Below, piece after piece: positions 23,596 to 35,970 of a stretch of 36,447 nucleotides of DNA. The DNA is from an uncultured Bacteroidales bacterium (lineage in GTDB: Bacteria; Bacteroidota; Bacteroidia; Bacteroidales; Paludibacteraceae): assembly GCA_945827635.1 (NCBI GenBank), contig CALZOG010000012.1, positions 1 through 36,447 on the forward strand. The letters are read 5' to 3'. Position numbers and translations under genes: made by a program. Every line of letters starts with the position of its first letter. Within the stretch, counting starts at the first letter, position 1. The notes under the pieces are model-generated. The model was not told where the DNA came from, searched no databases, and worked only from the letters and a program-made list of their open reading frames with translations.

Positions 23596-23625
23596 ACATC
23601 TCAGGTGAGGAAAGTACTATAAAAG

Positions 23626-23675
23626 TACGATAAAACTTCGATAAACCCTCGATAAACCCCCGATGGAACGGAACG
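23626..23675 (+). repeat. 'CGAT ladder' element copy 1
   Basis: TACGATAAAAC TTCGATAAACC CTCGATAAACC CCCGATGGAACGGAACG, then T6; CGAT at 23628, 23639, 23650, 23661. Confidence 0.9.
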
Positions 23676-23679
23676 TTTT

Positions 23680-26600
23680 TTAACTGAAACTATAGGTGAG
23701 TATGTTATCTTTGCGTTGCGCACTCAGCCAGTGGTAGAACGGTTTGGTTACACGTATATGTACGGTTCGTGCTGTGAGGGTTATGCCGTTGTGGTGCAAC
23801 GAATCCTCAACGCGGAATCTGATAACCAATCCGTCGTTGTCGTTCGCCTGCTCGCACTGCTCCTGAAAATCTCCCGCCCACGCTTCGGTAAGTTTGTCAA
23901 CAGGCATAGTGAGAGTGAGGTTGTGGACGCGATTCTTCTGTGCGTCCTGCAGGAGTTGTACATCCTTGACACGGCACTCATATTCGGCTTCGGCAAACGG
24001 AACATCCTTGTAGTACCTTCCGCCCCACCCTCTCGGCTGAACCTGCAGAGAGACGAAGGCATACACATCTTTTTTCAGCAGCGGAGCAAAGCGTTTGTAA
24101 TCCTCACCGAAGATCATGAACTCGTAACTGCCGGTATAATCCTCGATGGTATAACGTCCGTACAATGTACCCTTCTGCGAAGTACGCTCCTCGGCAGCGG
24201 TGATTATTCCGCCAACGTTGATGATACGTTTCTCATGCGCGTGTATCCATTCTTCAGGCGACACGCGTGCCTGTTGCGGAGCTGCATCGGACACAACCTC
24301 TTTCTCTTCGGTCACAGGTTCGCCGTCTGCATCACTGGTCACGATGGTTTCGATGGTTGTCTCCTGCTCGTCGCTTCTGCTATCGTTGCCACCTTGTGCA
24401 AACTGGGCGATTGCGGCGGCACGTTGTTCGGGTTTCTCCCAATCGCGGAAATGCTTGAGTTCCTCAGCGGTAACCGAGCACAGTTCGCGCACCTCAAACT
24501 CGTAATCATCCAGCGGGTGAGCGGAGAGGTAGATGCCGATCATCTCTTTCTCCTTGTTGAGGCGTTCAATGTTCGTCATACGCGGCACGTTGGGCAGTTC
24601 GGGTTTCTGTATATCCACTTCCATGTCCGCTGCGCCGAACAAGGTGAACTGGTTGTCGGCTTTGTTCTGCTGGTAGAGGTTGCCGTAGCGAACGAGCGTA
24701 TCGAGCACAACTTCGCCCTTGGAGTTATAACCTAACAGTTGCTCGCGGTAGAGCCCCTGGAAGCAGTCGAACGCTCCGGCATAGGCGAGACTTTCGATTG
24801 TCTTCTTGTTGCAGGCAGTAAGGTTGACGCGTTCCACAAAATCGAATATATCCTTGTACTTGCCGTTCTTCTCGCGCTCGGAGACGATAGCCTCCACGGC
24901 ATTCTCACCTACTCCCTTCACGCCGCCCAAGCCGAAGCGTATATCGCCCTTGCTGTTCGCCATGAAGTTCAGTCCCGACTCGTTGACGTCCGGCTCGAGT
25001 ACGCGGATGTTCATCTCGGTGCACTCGTCCATGAGGCGGGTTACATCCTTGGTGCTGTTCTTGAGGATAGTGAGGTTAGCCGCCATGAACTCGGAGGGAT
25101 AATGCGCCTTGAGATAAGCAGTCTGGTAGGCGACCCATGAGTAGCACGCTGCGTGCGACTTGTTGAAGGCATAGGATGCGAACTTCTCCCAATCTGCCCA
25201 AATCTTGTCAAGTATCTTCGGGTCATGACCGTTCGCCTTGCCGCCTGTCATAAACTTGCCTTTCAACTCCTGCAGGATAGCCATCTGCTTCTTACCCATG
25301 GCTTTACGGAGTTTGTCGCTCTCGCCGCGGGTGAAGTTGGCAAGCAGTCGTGACAGAAGCATGACTTGCTCCTGATAGACCGTTACGCCATAGGTGTCCT
25401 TCAGGTACTTCTCCATGACAGGTATATCGTAGGTCACAGGCTCCACACCGTGCTTGCGGCGGATGAACTGCGGGATATAATCCATCGGTCCGGGTCGGTA
25501 CAAGGCGTTCATGGCTATCAGGTCGCCCATCACGGTCGGCTTGAGTTGGCGCATGTAACTGCGCATTCCCGAGGACTCAAACTGGAAAACGGCTACCGTT
25601 CGCCCTTCCTGGAACAGTTTGTATGTCAGTTCGTCGTCCAGAGGAATGTGGTCGATGTCAACCTCTATTCCCTTGGTGCGCTTGATAGTTCGTATGCATT
25701 CTTTGATGATCGACAGGGTGATCAGTCCGAGGAAGTCCATCTTGATCAGTCCTACCGACTCCACCACATGACCGTCGTACTGGGTCACAAGCACGCGTTT
25801 TTGCGTCTTGGGGTCGAGCACGGAAGCCAGCGGAGCGAACTTAGTCAGATCGTCGGCACCGATGATCACGCCACAGGCATGTATGCCTACCTGGCGGATA
25901 GTATCCTCTAATTGTGCAGCGTACTCCAAGGTGTTATGCAGTACGGGATCATCGCCCTCGTATATCTGACGGAGTTCGTCGATGTACTTGTAGCAGTTGC
26001 GGAGGTTAACCTTGGGTTTCTTGCCTTTATCATCCTTGACCGAATCGGGGAAGTCGCGATCGGGAACGAGCGACTTGAGCTGGTTGCTCATGGGTATAGG
26101 CACGCCTTGTACGCGCGCCACGTCGGCAAGAGCCGAACGCGTAGCCATCTTGCCGTAGGTGATGATATGTGCCACATGGGTAGCACCGTACTTCTGCGAC
26201 ACCCAATCGAGCACCTTGCCGCGACCGGAATCCTCGAAGTCGGTATCTATATCCGGCAGGGATATACGGTCGGGGTTCAGGAATCGCTCGAACAGCAGGT
26301 CGTACTTCAGCGGATCGAGGTCGGTTATCTTCAGGCAGTACGCGACCACCGAACCGGCAGCGGAGCCACGTCCCGGTCCGACGCTCACGTCCAGTTCCTC
26401 ACGGGCGGCACGGATAAAGTCCATCACAATGAGGAAGTATCCGGGGAAACCCATGGTTTTCATAGTATGGAGTTCAAACTTGATACGCTCCTCCTGCTCG
26501 TCGGTCAGCGTGTCTCCGTAACGCTCGTGGGCACCTTTATAGGTGAGGTATTGCAAGTAATCCGCCTCGAACTTTATGCGGTAGAGTCGATCGTAACCTC

Positions 26601-27714
26601 CGAGTTTGTGGATACGTTTCTCCGCCTCAGCCTCGGTCATGATCACCTCTCCGTGCTCGTTGCGCGTGAACTCGTTGTAGAGTTGCTCGTGTGTGAACTT
26701 CTGCCGCCACTGCTCCTCCGTGCCGAACGACTCGGGTATATCGAACAGCGGCATAATAGGGTCTTTGTCCAGGTCATAGATCTCCACCTTGCTTGCCACC
26801 TCCAGGGTGTTGGCGAGTGCTTCGGGGATATCGTCGAAGATACGTTTCATCTCCTCGGGTGTCTTGAGCCACTCCTGCTTGGTGTACATCAGTTTGCGTG
26901 GTTCGGAGATCTTCTGGTTGGTTGACAGACAGATCAGGTGCTCATGCGCCTCGGCGTTCTGCTCGTCGAGGAAGTGCGCATCGTTGGTGCAGATAATCTT
27001 TACGTCATACTTCCGCGCCAGTTCGATGAGCACGGGATTGACCCGCCTCTGCTCCTGATAGGTCTCCTGGTTGCCGTTGGGTTTGTCGGTCTGGTGGCGC
27101 TGGAGTTCGATGTAATAATCGTCGCCGAACACGCGCTTGAACCACTGCACCGTTTCTTCCGCTCCTGCGCGGTCGCCATGCAGCACTTTCTGACTGAGTT
27201 CACCGCCGAGACATGCCGAGCAGGCGATCACGCCCTCATGATACTGCTCCAGCAGTTCTTTGTCAATACGCGGACGCGAGTAGAACGCATCGTCCATGAA
27301 CCCTGCACTGGTCAGTTTGCACAGGTTATGGTACCCCAGTTCGTTTTTCGCAAGCAGAATGAGGTGGAAGCCCGACTTGTCGATCTGATCTACTTTGCCG
27401 TCCGGCCATGTGTACTGCTCGTTGGTCATCGAGCGTCGCGTACGCCATGCGCAGTACGCCTCGACGCCAATGATAGGCTTGAAGGGCACAAAGGGCTCGG
27501 AGGCATCGTGCGAATCAGCCCACGCCTCTTTGTTCTTCTTGTTGACTTTCTTGCAATAATCTACGAGTTCCTTTATGCCGTACATATTGCCGTGATCGGT
27601 CAGCGCCACAGCCGGCATGCCGGTGCGGATACACTTATCAACTATATCAGGTACCTTCGACATGCCGTCGAGCGTCGAGTAGTGCGAGTGAACGTGCAGA
27701 TGGACAAAAGACAT
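23680..27714 (-). CDS. dnaE: DNA polymerase III subunit alpha
   Basis: FVHLHVHSHYSTLDGM PHP domain, VGPGRGSAAGSVVAYCL, PDIDTDFEDSGRGKVLDW, GIHACGVII, VYQEQVM. Confidence 0.98.
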   Translation of the reverse strand: MSFVHLHVHSHYSTLDGMSKVPDIVDKCIRTGMPAVALTDHGNMYGIKELVDYCKKVNKKNKEAWADSHDASEPFVPFKPIIGVEAYCAWRTRRSMTNEQYTWPDGKVDQIDKSGFHLILLAKNELGYHNLCKLTSAGFMDDAFYSRPRIDKELLEQYHEGVIACSACLGGELSQKVLHGDRAGAEETVQWFKRVFGDDYYIELQRHQTDKPNGNQETYQEQRRVNPVLIELARKYDVKIICTNDAHFLDEQNAEAHEHLICLSTNQKISEPRKLMYTKQEWLKTPEEMKRIFDDIPEALANTLEVASKVEIYDLDKDPIMPLFDIPESFGTEEQWRQKFTHEQLYNEFTRNEHGEVIMTEAEAEKRIHKLGGYDRLYRIKFEADYLQYLTYKGAHERYGDTLTDEQEERIKFELHTMKTMGFPGYFLIVMDFIRAAREELDVSVGPGRGSAAGSVVAYCLKITDLDPLKYDLLFERFLNPDRISLPDIDTDFEDSGRGKVLDWVSQKYGATHVAHIITYGKMATRSALADVARVQGVPIPMSNQLKSLVPDRDFPDSVKDDKGKKPKVNLRNCYKYIDELRQIYEGDDPVLHNTLEYAAQLEDTIRQVGIHACGVIIGADDLTKFAPLASVLDPKTQKRVLVTQYDGHVVESVGLIKMDFLGLITLSIIKECIRTIKRTKGIEVDIDHIPLDDELTYKLFQEGRTVAVFQFESSGMRSYMRQLKPTVMGDLIAMNALYRPGPMDYIPQFIRRKHGVEPVTYDIPVMEKYLKDTYGVTVYQEQVMLLSRLLANFTRGESDKLRKAMGKKQMAILQELKGKFMTGGKANGHDPKILDKIWADWEKFASYAFNKSHAACYSWVAYQTAYLKAHYPSEFMAANLTILKNSTKDVTRLMDECTEMNIRVLEPDVNESGLNFMANSKGDIRFGLGGVKGVGENAVEAIVSEREKNGKYKDIFDFVERVNLTACNKKTIESLAYAGAFDCFQGLYREQLLGYNSKGEVVLDTLVRYGNLYQQNKADNQFTLFGAADMEVDIQKPELPNVPRMTNIERLNKEKEMIGIYLSAHPLDDYEFEVRELCSVTAEELKHFRDWEKPEQRAAAIAQFAQGGNDSRSDEQETTIETIVTSDADGEPVTEEKEVVSDAAPQQARVSPEEWIHAHEKRIINVGGIITAAEERTSQKGTLYGRYTIEDYTGSYEFMIFGEDYKRFAPLLKKDVYAFVSLQVQPRGWGGRYYKDVPFAEAEYECRVKDVQLLQDAQKNRVHNLTLTMPVDKLTEAWAGDFQEQCEQANDNDGLVIRFRVEDSLHHNGITLTARTVHIRVTKPFYHWLSAQRKDNILTYSFS

Positions 27715-27715
27715 A

Positions 27716-27750
27716 ACGATTTACGATTTACCATTTACGATTTACGATTG
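27716..27750 (-). repeat. Five heptamers forming the predicted dnaE 5' leader (AAATCGT-type on the coding strand)
   Basis: Plus strand ACGATTT ACGATTT ACCATTT ACGATTT ACGATTG, ending 1 nt from the start codon. Confidence 0.92.
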
Positions 27751-27756
27751 GCACTA

Positions 27757-27787
27757 CAAAGGTAGTAAAAAAAATGCACATTTGCAA
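27757..27787 (-). promoter_or_regulatory. Bacteroidetes-type promoter of dnaE (TTG-N20-TACCTTTG)
   Basis: Minus strand TTG (27787-27785), 20-nt spacer, TACCTTTG (27764-27757). Confidence 0.75.
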
Positions 27788-27859
27788 ATTTTTCGTTAAG
27801 TTTTTTCACGTGCAGTGCAAAAAAGAAAAAAAACAGAGATACCGAAACGAAGACATAAC

Positions 27860-27909
27860 CACGATGAAACATCGATATTCCCTCGATAAACCCTCGATCG
27901 AACGGAACG
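27860..27909 (+). repeat. 'CGAT ladder' element copy 2
   Basis: CACGATGAAAC ATCGATATTCC CTCGATAAACC CTCGATCGAACGGAACG, then T6; CGAT at 27862, 27873, 27884, 27895. Confidence 0.9.
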
Positions 27910-28034
27910 TTTTTTGGTAAAATAACGGTTACGAGGGGGCGATACAACGATCGAACGTTTCCATAAAGACAGGTTGCATATCAGTCATAAGCGTTGTGGC
28001 TACACATAGCTACCGAATATAACTATGAATCGTT

Positions 28035-29408
28035 TCATGATAGATAAAGTATCGGTTGTCTGAAATATTTGGCAGTGAGGTAAATGACCCTTGCCGCCAA
28101 GTGGGCGAAGTAGGCGATGTAGAGGGAGTGAGTCGAGAGTCGAAAGTCGAAAGTCGAAAGAAGAAAGTAGGAAACGGCGAAGGCGGCGGCAGCCCAGAGC
28201 ATGGCGTTGCGGATATCCTTACCGCGCGTGGCACCGGCAAAAATTCCGTCCCACATGAACGCCAACATACTGACTATCGGCATAGCGATCAGCCAACCTA
28301 TGTACTTGTGCATGGTAGTGATCACCTGTTGATCAGAAGTGAGTGCTGCAAACAACGCGTCGGGGAAAAGGGCGTACAAGAGGCTGAAGAACAAGCCGAC
28401 ACCAGTGCCCCAGGCGAAGAGGGTCCATATTAAAGTTGAGGGTTGAGCGTTGAGCGTTGAGCGAAGTTTGTCAGTTGAGGGTTGATTGCTGATGGCCGAC
28501 TGCTGCTCGCCGATGGTTTTGCCGACAAGAGCCTCGCCGGCATATGCAAAACCATCGATAAAGAACGAGAAGAGCATGAACAATTTCATCATTAGCGCAG
28601 AGGCTGCAAGTTCCACATCGCCGTAAGCACTGCTGATAGCCGTCCAACCGACATACACGACAATGAAACACAACGAACGGATGAACAGGTCGTAGTTGAG
28701 ACGGAAGAAGCGGGAAGAGTCGAAAGTCGAAAGTCGATAGTCGATAGTCGATAGTCGAAAGTGGTCGGCGTAGCGCGTGGCAATCATAACAAGGGCGACG
28801 ATCAGACCTGTCCATTGGGCGATGAGCGTTCCCCACGCCACGCCAACAGCACCTAAAGGTGTGTGGACCGCCAACAGGTACGAGGCGAGCATATTCACGC
28901 CATTGACCACCAGATCGGTGACCATAGCGCGCGTGCCGTCCTGCATCCCGATGAACCAGCCTTTGCAAGTCATGATCATCAGCGTAGCGGGAGCAGCCCA
29001 GACGCGAATGTTGAAGTATGCGCGCGCAAACTCCGCGACCTCGGGCGAGCAGGGCATAACGTAGAGCACCGCTCGCAGATAGACGGATTGCAGCAGCCAA
29101 ATGAGCAATGCGCCGACAAGAGCGATACCTGACGAGCGCAGCAGCAGACTGCCGCACTCCATCCGCTGCCCTGCGCCGTACGCCTGAGCGGTCAGACCTG
29201 CCGTGCTCACACGCAGGAAACCGAAACAGCCGTACAACATGTCAAACAACATTGTACCGACCGCTATGCCGCCTATCGCCCACGCCGAACTGATATGTCC
29301 GGCAATAACCATATCCACCAACCCGACCAGCGGGATAGTGATATTCGCCAGGATTGAGGGGACAGCAATCCGGAGGATGGATTTATGTAGATGAGAGTCG
29401 AAAGTCAA
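28035..29408 (-). CDS. MATE family efflux transporter (DinF-like)
   Basis: SILRIAVPSILANITIPLVGLVDMVIAGH; repeated TM segments; GFAYAGEALVGKTIG. Likely start is TTG at 29408, inside a heptamer array. Confidence 0.9.
   Translation of the reverse strand: MTFDSHLHKSILRIAVPSILANITIPLVGLVDMVIAGHISSAWAIGGIAVGTMLFDMLYGCFGFLRVSTAGLTAQAYGAGQRMECGSLLLRSSGIALVGALLIWLLQSVYLRAVLYVMPCSPEVAEFARAYFNIRVWAAPATLMIMTCKGWFIGMQDGTRAMVTDLVVNGVNMLASYLLAVHTPLGAVGVAWGTLIAQWTGLIVALVMIATRYADHFRLSTIDYRLSTFDSSRFFRLNYDLFIRSLCFIVVYVGWTAISSAYGDVELAASALMMKLFMLFSFFIDGFAYAGEALVGKTIGEQQSAISNQPSTDKLRSTLNAQPSTLIWTLFAWGTGVGLFFSLLYALFPDALFAALTSDQQVITTMHKYIGWLIAMPIVSMLAFMWDGIFAGATRGKDIRNAMLWAAAAFAVSYFLLSTFDFRLSTHSLYIAYFAHLAARVIYLTAKYFRQPILYLS
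28131..28158 (-). repeat. Heptamer array in the MATE C-terminal region (AGTCGAG + AGTCGAA x3, plus strand)
   Basis: Encodes LLSTFDFRLST in frame. Confidence 0.85.
28435..28487 (-). repeat. GTTGAGG/GTTGAGC heptamers inside MATE
   Basis: GTTGAGG + GTTGAGC x3 (28435-28462), an 11-nt interruption, GTTGAGG + GTTGATT (28474-28487); encodes SNQPSTDKLRSTLNAQPST. Confidence 0.85.
28718..28759 (-). repeat. Six-unit heptamer array inside MATE (AGTCGAA/AGTCGAT, plus strand)
   Basis: AGTCGAA x2, AGTCGAT x3, AGTCGAA; 42 bp in frame, encodes FRLSTIDYRLSTFDS. Confidence 0.92.
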
Positions 29409-29486: not shown

Positions 29487-30359
29487 TTAGCCGATGGTTA
29501 CTTCGGGATTGATCTTGCGTATCAGGTTCTTGAGCACGTCGCCGGGTCCGAACTCATAGAACTCGTTTGCTCCGTCGGCAATCATCTGATTGACAGTTTG
29601 CGTCCATCGCACGGGCGAGGTGAGCTGCTCGAGCAGGTTGCGGCGGATATGTTCAGGATCCGTCTGCGGCGTGGCGCAGACGTTCTGGTAGATCGGACAA
29701 ACAGGTTGACGGAACGCGGTCTGCTCGATAGCCTTGCCGAGCGCCTCTGCCGCCGGTTGCATCAGCGGCGAGTGGAACGCACCGCCCACAGGCAGTTTGA
29801 TAGCACGTTTGGCACCCGCCTCTTTCATCAGCGGGATAGCCTTGTCGATACCGCTCACCGTGCCGGAAATAACAATCTGTCCGTTGCAGTTGAAGTTAGC
29901 AGCCACTACTATATCGTCGGTTATGCTGTTGCATATCTCCTCGACTTTCTCGTCGGGCAGAGCGAGTACGGCAGCCATCGTGCCGGGTTGTAGTTCGCAC
30001 GCCTTCTGCATGGCTTCGGCACGTGCACTCACGAGCAGCAAAGCGTCCTCAAACGCCAACGCACCGCACGCCACCAGCGCGGAGAACTCGCCCAGGCTGT
30101 GACCGGCAACCATCTGCGGCTGCTCAATCGTGTTGACCATGAACGCCGCCACAGAGTGCAGGAACACGGCAGGCTGGGTGACACGCGTGGCACGCAGATC
30201 CTCATCGGTGCCGTTGAACATAACGTCCGTTATACGGAAACCCAGCAGTTCGTTGGCGCGCTCAAAGAGTTCACGAACTACGGCGTGGTTGTCGTACAGG
30301 TCCTTGCCCATACTTGTATGCTGACTGCCCTGACCGGGGAAAACGAAAGATTTTGACAT
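29487..30359 (-). CDS. fabD: Malonyl CoA-acyl carrier protein transacylase
   Basis: SFVFPGQGSQHTSMGKDLY, VAGHSLGEFSALVACGAL, GGAFHSPLMQPA. Confidence 0.96.
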   Translation of the reverse strand: MSKSFVFPGQGSQHTSMGKDLYDNHAVVRELFERANELLGFRITDVMFNGTDEDLRATRVTQPAVFLHSVAAFMVNTIEQPQMVAGHSLGEFSALVACGALAFEDALLLVSARAEAMQKACELQPGTMAAVLALPDEKVEEICNSITDDIVVAANFNCNGQIVISGTVSGIDKAIPLMKEAGAKRAIKLPVGGAFHSPLMQPAAEALGKAIEQTAFRQPVCPIYQNVCATPQTDPEHIRRNLLEQLTSPVRWTQTVNQMIADGANEFYEFGPGDVLKNLIRKINPEVTIG

Positions 30360-35841: not shown

Positions 35842-35920
35842 CATGGGGGAAAGAAGACAAACGGCGGAATACCTCCTCAAACCGAACACCTCTACGCTTA
35901 CTCTGCGGGAAAGCGAAAGA

Positions 35921-35970
35921 CTCGATACATCCTCGAGAAAGCCTCGATAAGCCCTCGATGGAACGGAACG
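35921..35970 (+). repeat. 'CGAT ladder' element copy 3
   Basis: CTCGATACATC CTCGAGAAAGC CTCGATAAGCC CTCGATGGAACGGAACG; CGAT/CGAG at 35923, 35934, 35945, 35956. Confidence 0.9.

Follow-up and report, generated by a model that had tools for sequence, protein, structure and literature searches.

The heptamer array that immediately precedes dnaE in this uncultured Paludibacteraceae bacterium is probably one case of a genus-wide heptamer-repeat process, tolerated at this locus as a leader spacer. Such a process would make, extend, shrink, and erode tandem heptamers in weakly constrained sequence, chiefly in the short spacers between co-directional genes and in protein loops, and replication slippage is the likely mechanism by which units are gained and lost. 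The simplest account would be that this lineage in particular tends to form heptamer tandems and to slip within them, with tolerance acting as the filter. Because heptamer stutters occur throughout the gene gaps and inside some proteins, the likeliest reading of the dnaE array is a spacer that is tolerated and changes, rather than a special switch. More broadly, this rumen genus of the Paludibacteraceae has species-specific heptamer units that turn over quickly, both in gene spacers and inside proteins.

The window (the whole stretch of 36,447 nucleotides that was analysed) carries dnaE on the minus strand at 23680..27714. The gene encodes the 1344-aa alpha subunit of DNA polymerase III, with the Pfam domains PHP, DNA_pol3_alpha, finger, and HHH_6 and matches to NCBIfam NF004226/TIGR00594 (the reading frame scores above the cut-off for NF004226). 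The minus strand from 27788 to 27712 reads TTTG-N20-TACCTTTG-TAGTGC-CAATCGT-AAATCGT-AAATGGT-AAATCGT-AAATCGT-T-ATG. In the AAATCGT register the minus-strand units, as read from the sequence, are CAATCGT (27750-27744), AAATCGT (27743-27737), AAATGGT (27736-27730), AAATCGT (27729-27723), and AAATCGT (27722-27716), so that two of the five are variants; a single T (27715) separates the last from the ATG (27714-27712). The first-pass annotation had described five AAATCGT-type 7-mers at 27750-27716 ending 1 nt before the ATG, and both direct reading and Tandem Repeats Finder confirm this; the program reports a minus-strand array of AATCGTA/AAATCGT with one AAATGGT at 27716-27749 (period 7, 4.9 copies, score 61). 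The distance from the last G of TACCTTTG to the ATG is 42 nt, of which the repeat occupies 34. Self-match at period 7 reaches 0.77 in the leader (dinucleotide shuffles give P = 0.0005), and the array exceeds chance. The same genome has a second DnaE-like reading frame of 948 aa (L084:1288-4134, G000:C60), which shares 54% identity with the N-terminal portion of the DnaE in the window and may be a paralogue, a foreign contig in the MAG, or a truncated gene.

A predicted promoter lies directly upstream of the array on the minus strand. Its -33 element, TTTG (27785..27788), and its -7 element, TACCTTTG (27757..27764, kept as TANCTTTG in five species), match the sigma-ABfr pattern TTTG-N19..21-TAnnTTTG in motif, and the TTTG-N20-TAnnTTTG spacing fits the published consensus (PMC7366714). 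Across the five species aligned at dnaE, TTG-CAAAT is invariant and TTGCAAAT...TTTTT...TANCTTTG is nearly so, while the leader behind varies from 25 to 63 nt. The putative transcription start region, TAGTGCC (27750..27756), is identical in the sister species G007/RUG324 and in UBA1216. The promoter stretch (window 27793-27756) is found again at many places in the relative G001 and at some in G007, as expected for a widely used promoter. The TTG-N20-TACCTTTG promoter proposed earlier is thus probably real: its core is shared with four relatives, and the stretch is reused elsewhere in relatives. Since this is a standard Bacteroidetes promoter whose core four relatives retain, a 5' UTR dominated by repeat is plausible. 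The earlier suggestion of a repeat-only leader holds in the form that a start near 27750 would give a 5' UTR of about 35 nt, almost all of it repeat; the start itself comes from the predicted promoter. That length is ordinary, close to the median of 32 nt for B. thetaiotaomicron 5' UTRs (PMC7366714). The dnaE leader resembles those of genes with sigma-ABfr promoters and short 5' UTRs lacking a Shine-Dalgarno sequence (PMC7366714, PMC6847099) in its TTTG/TAnnTTTG elements and typical length, but it is repetitive and has G in place of the favoured A at -3. The repeat as a supplier of initiation context was considered and rejected: A-rich positions at -3, -6, and -12/-13 are common to array genes and other genes. 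At array genes, the bases just before the ATG frequently deviate from the repeat.

Its genome contains a great many other arrays, a point that the first-pass annotation missed. Array statistics were obtained from an 812-kb sample of the window's genome (2.07 Mb in 121 contigs), together with whole-genome pattern searches. In 116 kb of intergenic sequence from this sample there are 41 strong period-7 arrays, compared with 1.2 in second-order Markov surrogates; a looser threshold gives 45 against 2.0 expected (110 kb intergenic), and 7 is the dominant period of the sample. The corresponding intergenic counts are 31 versus 1.3 in the sister species and 21 versus 1.0 in a more distant congener (G014). 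Smaller samples from three other families of the order have few or no period-7 arrays (0, 2, and 0). The repeated units are diverse: the window's genome has AAAGTCG, GAGAGTT, AACACTC, ACTATCG, and AAATCGT, and G014 has AACTCAT. The window's genome matches the AAAGTCG pattern 220 times and several congeners not at all; across 41 genomes of the genus this pattern and AAATCGT each vary between abundant and absent.

What the arrays are enriched in is spacers between co-directional genes. Such spacers hold 42 of 46 arrays in the window's genome (p = 2.8e-5), 17 of 19 in G014 (p = 0.011), and 25 of 31 in G007 (p = 0.11). Many arrays span the stop-to-start gap entirely, leaving a promoter no room. 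Array density in predicted promoter-ATG intervals is close to that in all spacers, at 0.60 versus 0.57/kb in the window's genome (four leader arrays), 0.38 versus 0.45/kb in G007 (two), and 0.62 versus 0.40/kb in G014 (two); with so few leader arrays a modest enrichment is possible, though nothing supports one. The proposal that the array acts as a dedicated leader rather than intergenic filler is not supported: arrays are no commoner in these intervals than in spacers at large, an outcome that the first-pass annotation had itself named as refuting. Some close relatives have the dnaE promoter but no clean array, and others have neither. A leader-specific function was rejected on the same densities. 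Gene calls were made with a simple dicodon caller, by which individual start codons may be off; 15 arrays end within 10 nt of a start codon, compared with 16.2 under random placement within the same spacer, and array-to-start-codon distances have no peak. Targeting of start codons was likewise rejected, since abutment does not exceed random placement in any of the three genomes. Abutment on stop codons is in excess in the window's genome (25 versus 16.3, P = 0.0002) and is not significant in G007 or G014. Frame-proof stop codons were rejected as a cause of the repeats: a stop occurs in 20 of 40 units in the sense direction and in 18 antisense, and about half on either strand amounts to no clear bias.

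The same distributions bear on a highly improbable alternative, in which a regulator of translation would bind the repeats in RNA or DNA, as has been suggested for the TAACTGA repeats of Beggiatoaceae. TAACTGA arrays are known from Beggiatoaceae, Cyanobacteria, and Bacteroidetes including Paludibacter, lie in forward orientation, and most commonly end 1 nt before the start codon (PMC4679880). The dnaE array is also heptameric and forward, ends 1 nt before the ATG, and lacks a Shine-Dalgarno sequence. However, its unit is AAATCGT, its units are non-uniform, and the genome has no overall start-codon preference. Units here vary by spacer and by species, whereas BOGUAY has a single motif; array orientation is mixed, start-codon distances are not peaked, and arrays also occur within coding sequence.

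Turnover is seen among close relatives. Those found via DnaE are, where named, mostly rumen Bacteroidales/Paludibacteraceae MAGs. A clean dnaE array is present in the window's genome (five units) and in G007/RUG324 (eight units). UBA1216 and RUG12873 keep the promoter, followed by eroded heptads; RGIG3560 keeps it, followed by a 25-nt non-repeat leader. RGIG6711, whose DnaE is 97% identical to the window's, has neither array nor promoter at dnaE, and G004, G021, and G003 have a TAnnTTTG element closely upstream of the ATG without repeats. At 15 more distant dnaE loci (most titled Prevotella/Prevotellaceae), the heptamers are found at -61 or at more distal positions relative to the ATG; wherever a promoter was called, they are upstream of it. 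Other spacers have changed as well: one orthologous spacer is a 63-nt array in the window's genome and 12 repeat-free nt in G007; another (L071:2498-2681, between two genes) holds 26 AAAGTCG-type units, where G007 has 8-bp GTTTGAAG tandems; and two further array spacers correspond to unrelated sequence in G007. The G007 counterpart of L054:19360-19442, a stretch of heptamers in the window's genome, is a palindromic repeat, CCCCTCCCTGAAAGGAGGGG.

G001 has heptads at dnaE and no promoter, because nth directly precedes dnaE there. This arrangement suggests another quite improbable alternative, that spacers carrying heptamers recombined at the array, whose adjacency to the ATG would be a by-product of gene rejoining. 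Homology between the window and G001 (L080, G001:C6) does start at 27750, the edge of the array, and nth lies elsewhere in the window's genome and in G007, followed there by an AACACTC array. Gene-order breaks, however, normally land in spacers of any content, the unit on the nth side is unlike that on the dnaE side, and the case comprises one breakpoint.

Heptamers also enter coding sequence close to dnaE. The upstream neighbour, a MATE-family transporter gene (28035..29408, minus strand; Pfam MatE, TIGR00797), has period-7 arrays within its reading frame at 28130-28167, 28435-28463, and 28718-28762, with units different from those at dnaE. The encoded heptamer-derived stretches are STIDYRLSTFDS, SNQPSTDKLRSTLNAQPST, and LSTFDFRLST; the G007 orthologue is different at two of them. 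The MATE gene is preceded by fabD (29487-30359, minus strand, as is dnaE). In G007, the MATE gene and the dnaE promoter are separated by a DUF6359 gene (L079:2115-3593), which is missing from that place in the window.

With a conserved sigma-ABfr-type promoter on one side and the ATG on the other, the array would probably make up most of the dnaE mRNA leader. Its role would be that of a permissive spacer, in which neither a particular length nor a particular sequence is needed; each change of one unit would lengthen or shorten the leader by 7 nt and alter dnaE expression modestly at most. Two observations stand against the spacer reading. AAAT-phased heptads occur in the leaders of four promoter-bearing relatives at graded distances (period-7 P = 0.0005 in the window, 0.0005 in G007, 0.021 in UBA1216, and 0.019 in RUG12873), which could reflect weak selection for an A-rich phased leader. 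Initiation regions are also slightly less folded at genes with an array near the start in the window's genome (median -4.4 versus -5.8, p = 0.008) and in G007 (median -3.7 versus -5.9, p = 0.016), though not in G014; less structured starts in the former two genomes fit arrays as harmless A/T-rich leaders.

A more active role is unlikely, though somewhat less so than the other alternatives. Unit number could set dnaE expression, as 7-bp repeats do in the 5' UTR of Haemophilus influenzae hmw1A, if extra units lengthened the leader, added pairing near the start codon, and lowered translation or mRNA level. The array does lie between promoter and ATG and differs between sister species, and the predicted energy of the leader with the early coding sequence falls from -0.1 kcal/mol with one unit to -7.8 with five and -13.9 with eight, with pairing across the ATG. 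In hmw1A the repeats lie inside the 5' UTR of the P2 transcript, and more repeats give less expression (PMC8262952). Longer RNAs fold more in any case, however, and the dnaE leader shows no stronger folding than shuffled sequences (z = -0.24 and -0.63); a selected RNA structure was rejected for this reason. The window's dnaE initiation region is average, at the 35th percentile of folding among other genes, and leaders are not enriched in arrays. Moreover, dnaE is an essential replication gene rather than a surface contingency locus, and its units are imperfect. Imperfect repeat units usually slow slippage. An effect on dosage like that at hmw1A is possible at dnaE but unsupported. It would be a long shot that the leader is so prone to slippage that unit number drifts and the level of DnaE changes between lineages; if true, replication would be tuning itself in a genus rich in such repeats.

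Heptamer arrays of this kind are already known, and the rumen genus adds units of its own. The hmw1A/hmw2A arrays of H. influenzae have about 11-24 7-bp units, vary within strains, and have measured effects on adhesin expression (PMC8262952). The dnaE array is likewise a 7-bp tandem and would, given its predicted and conserved promoter, lie downstream of a promoter and inside the 5' UTR, but it has five to eight imperfect units before an essential replication gene and varies between species. Also known are the intergenic heptameric simple sequence repeats of Xanthomonas (GGGAATC) and Nostoc (GGGGATT), for which a polymerase-footprint explanation of the bacterial heptamer preference has been quoted (PMC4692102). 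Like these, the present arrays are genome-wide, have a unit length of 7, lie mostly in co-directional spacers, often overlap or just follow the stop codon (in the window's genome, not in G007 or G014), and differ in length and sequence between related species (the window's genome versus G007). In contrast to the Xanthomonas and Nostoc repeats, there are many units per genome, and the A/T-rich dnaE units (AAATCGT/AAATGGT) have no run of three G and no G-quadruplex potential. When such genomes are annotated, a genome-wide control is needed before a repeat-only leader is taken as regulatory.

A second dispersed repeat, with the 11-bp unit TCGATAAACCC, occurs in the window at 27855-27918, 23611-23664, and 35915-35959. 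Among short periods in the genome sample, 11 ranks second in enrichment, and G007 has about twenty places that match the stretch at 27855-27918 with 82-98% identity.
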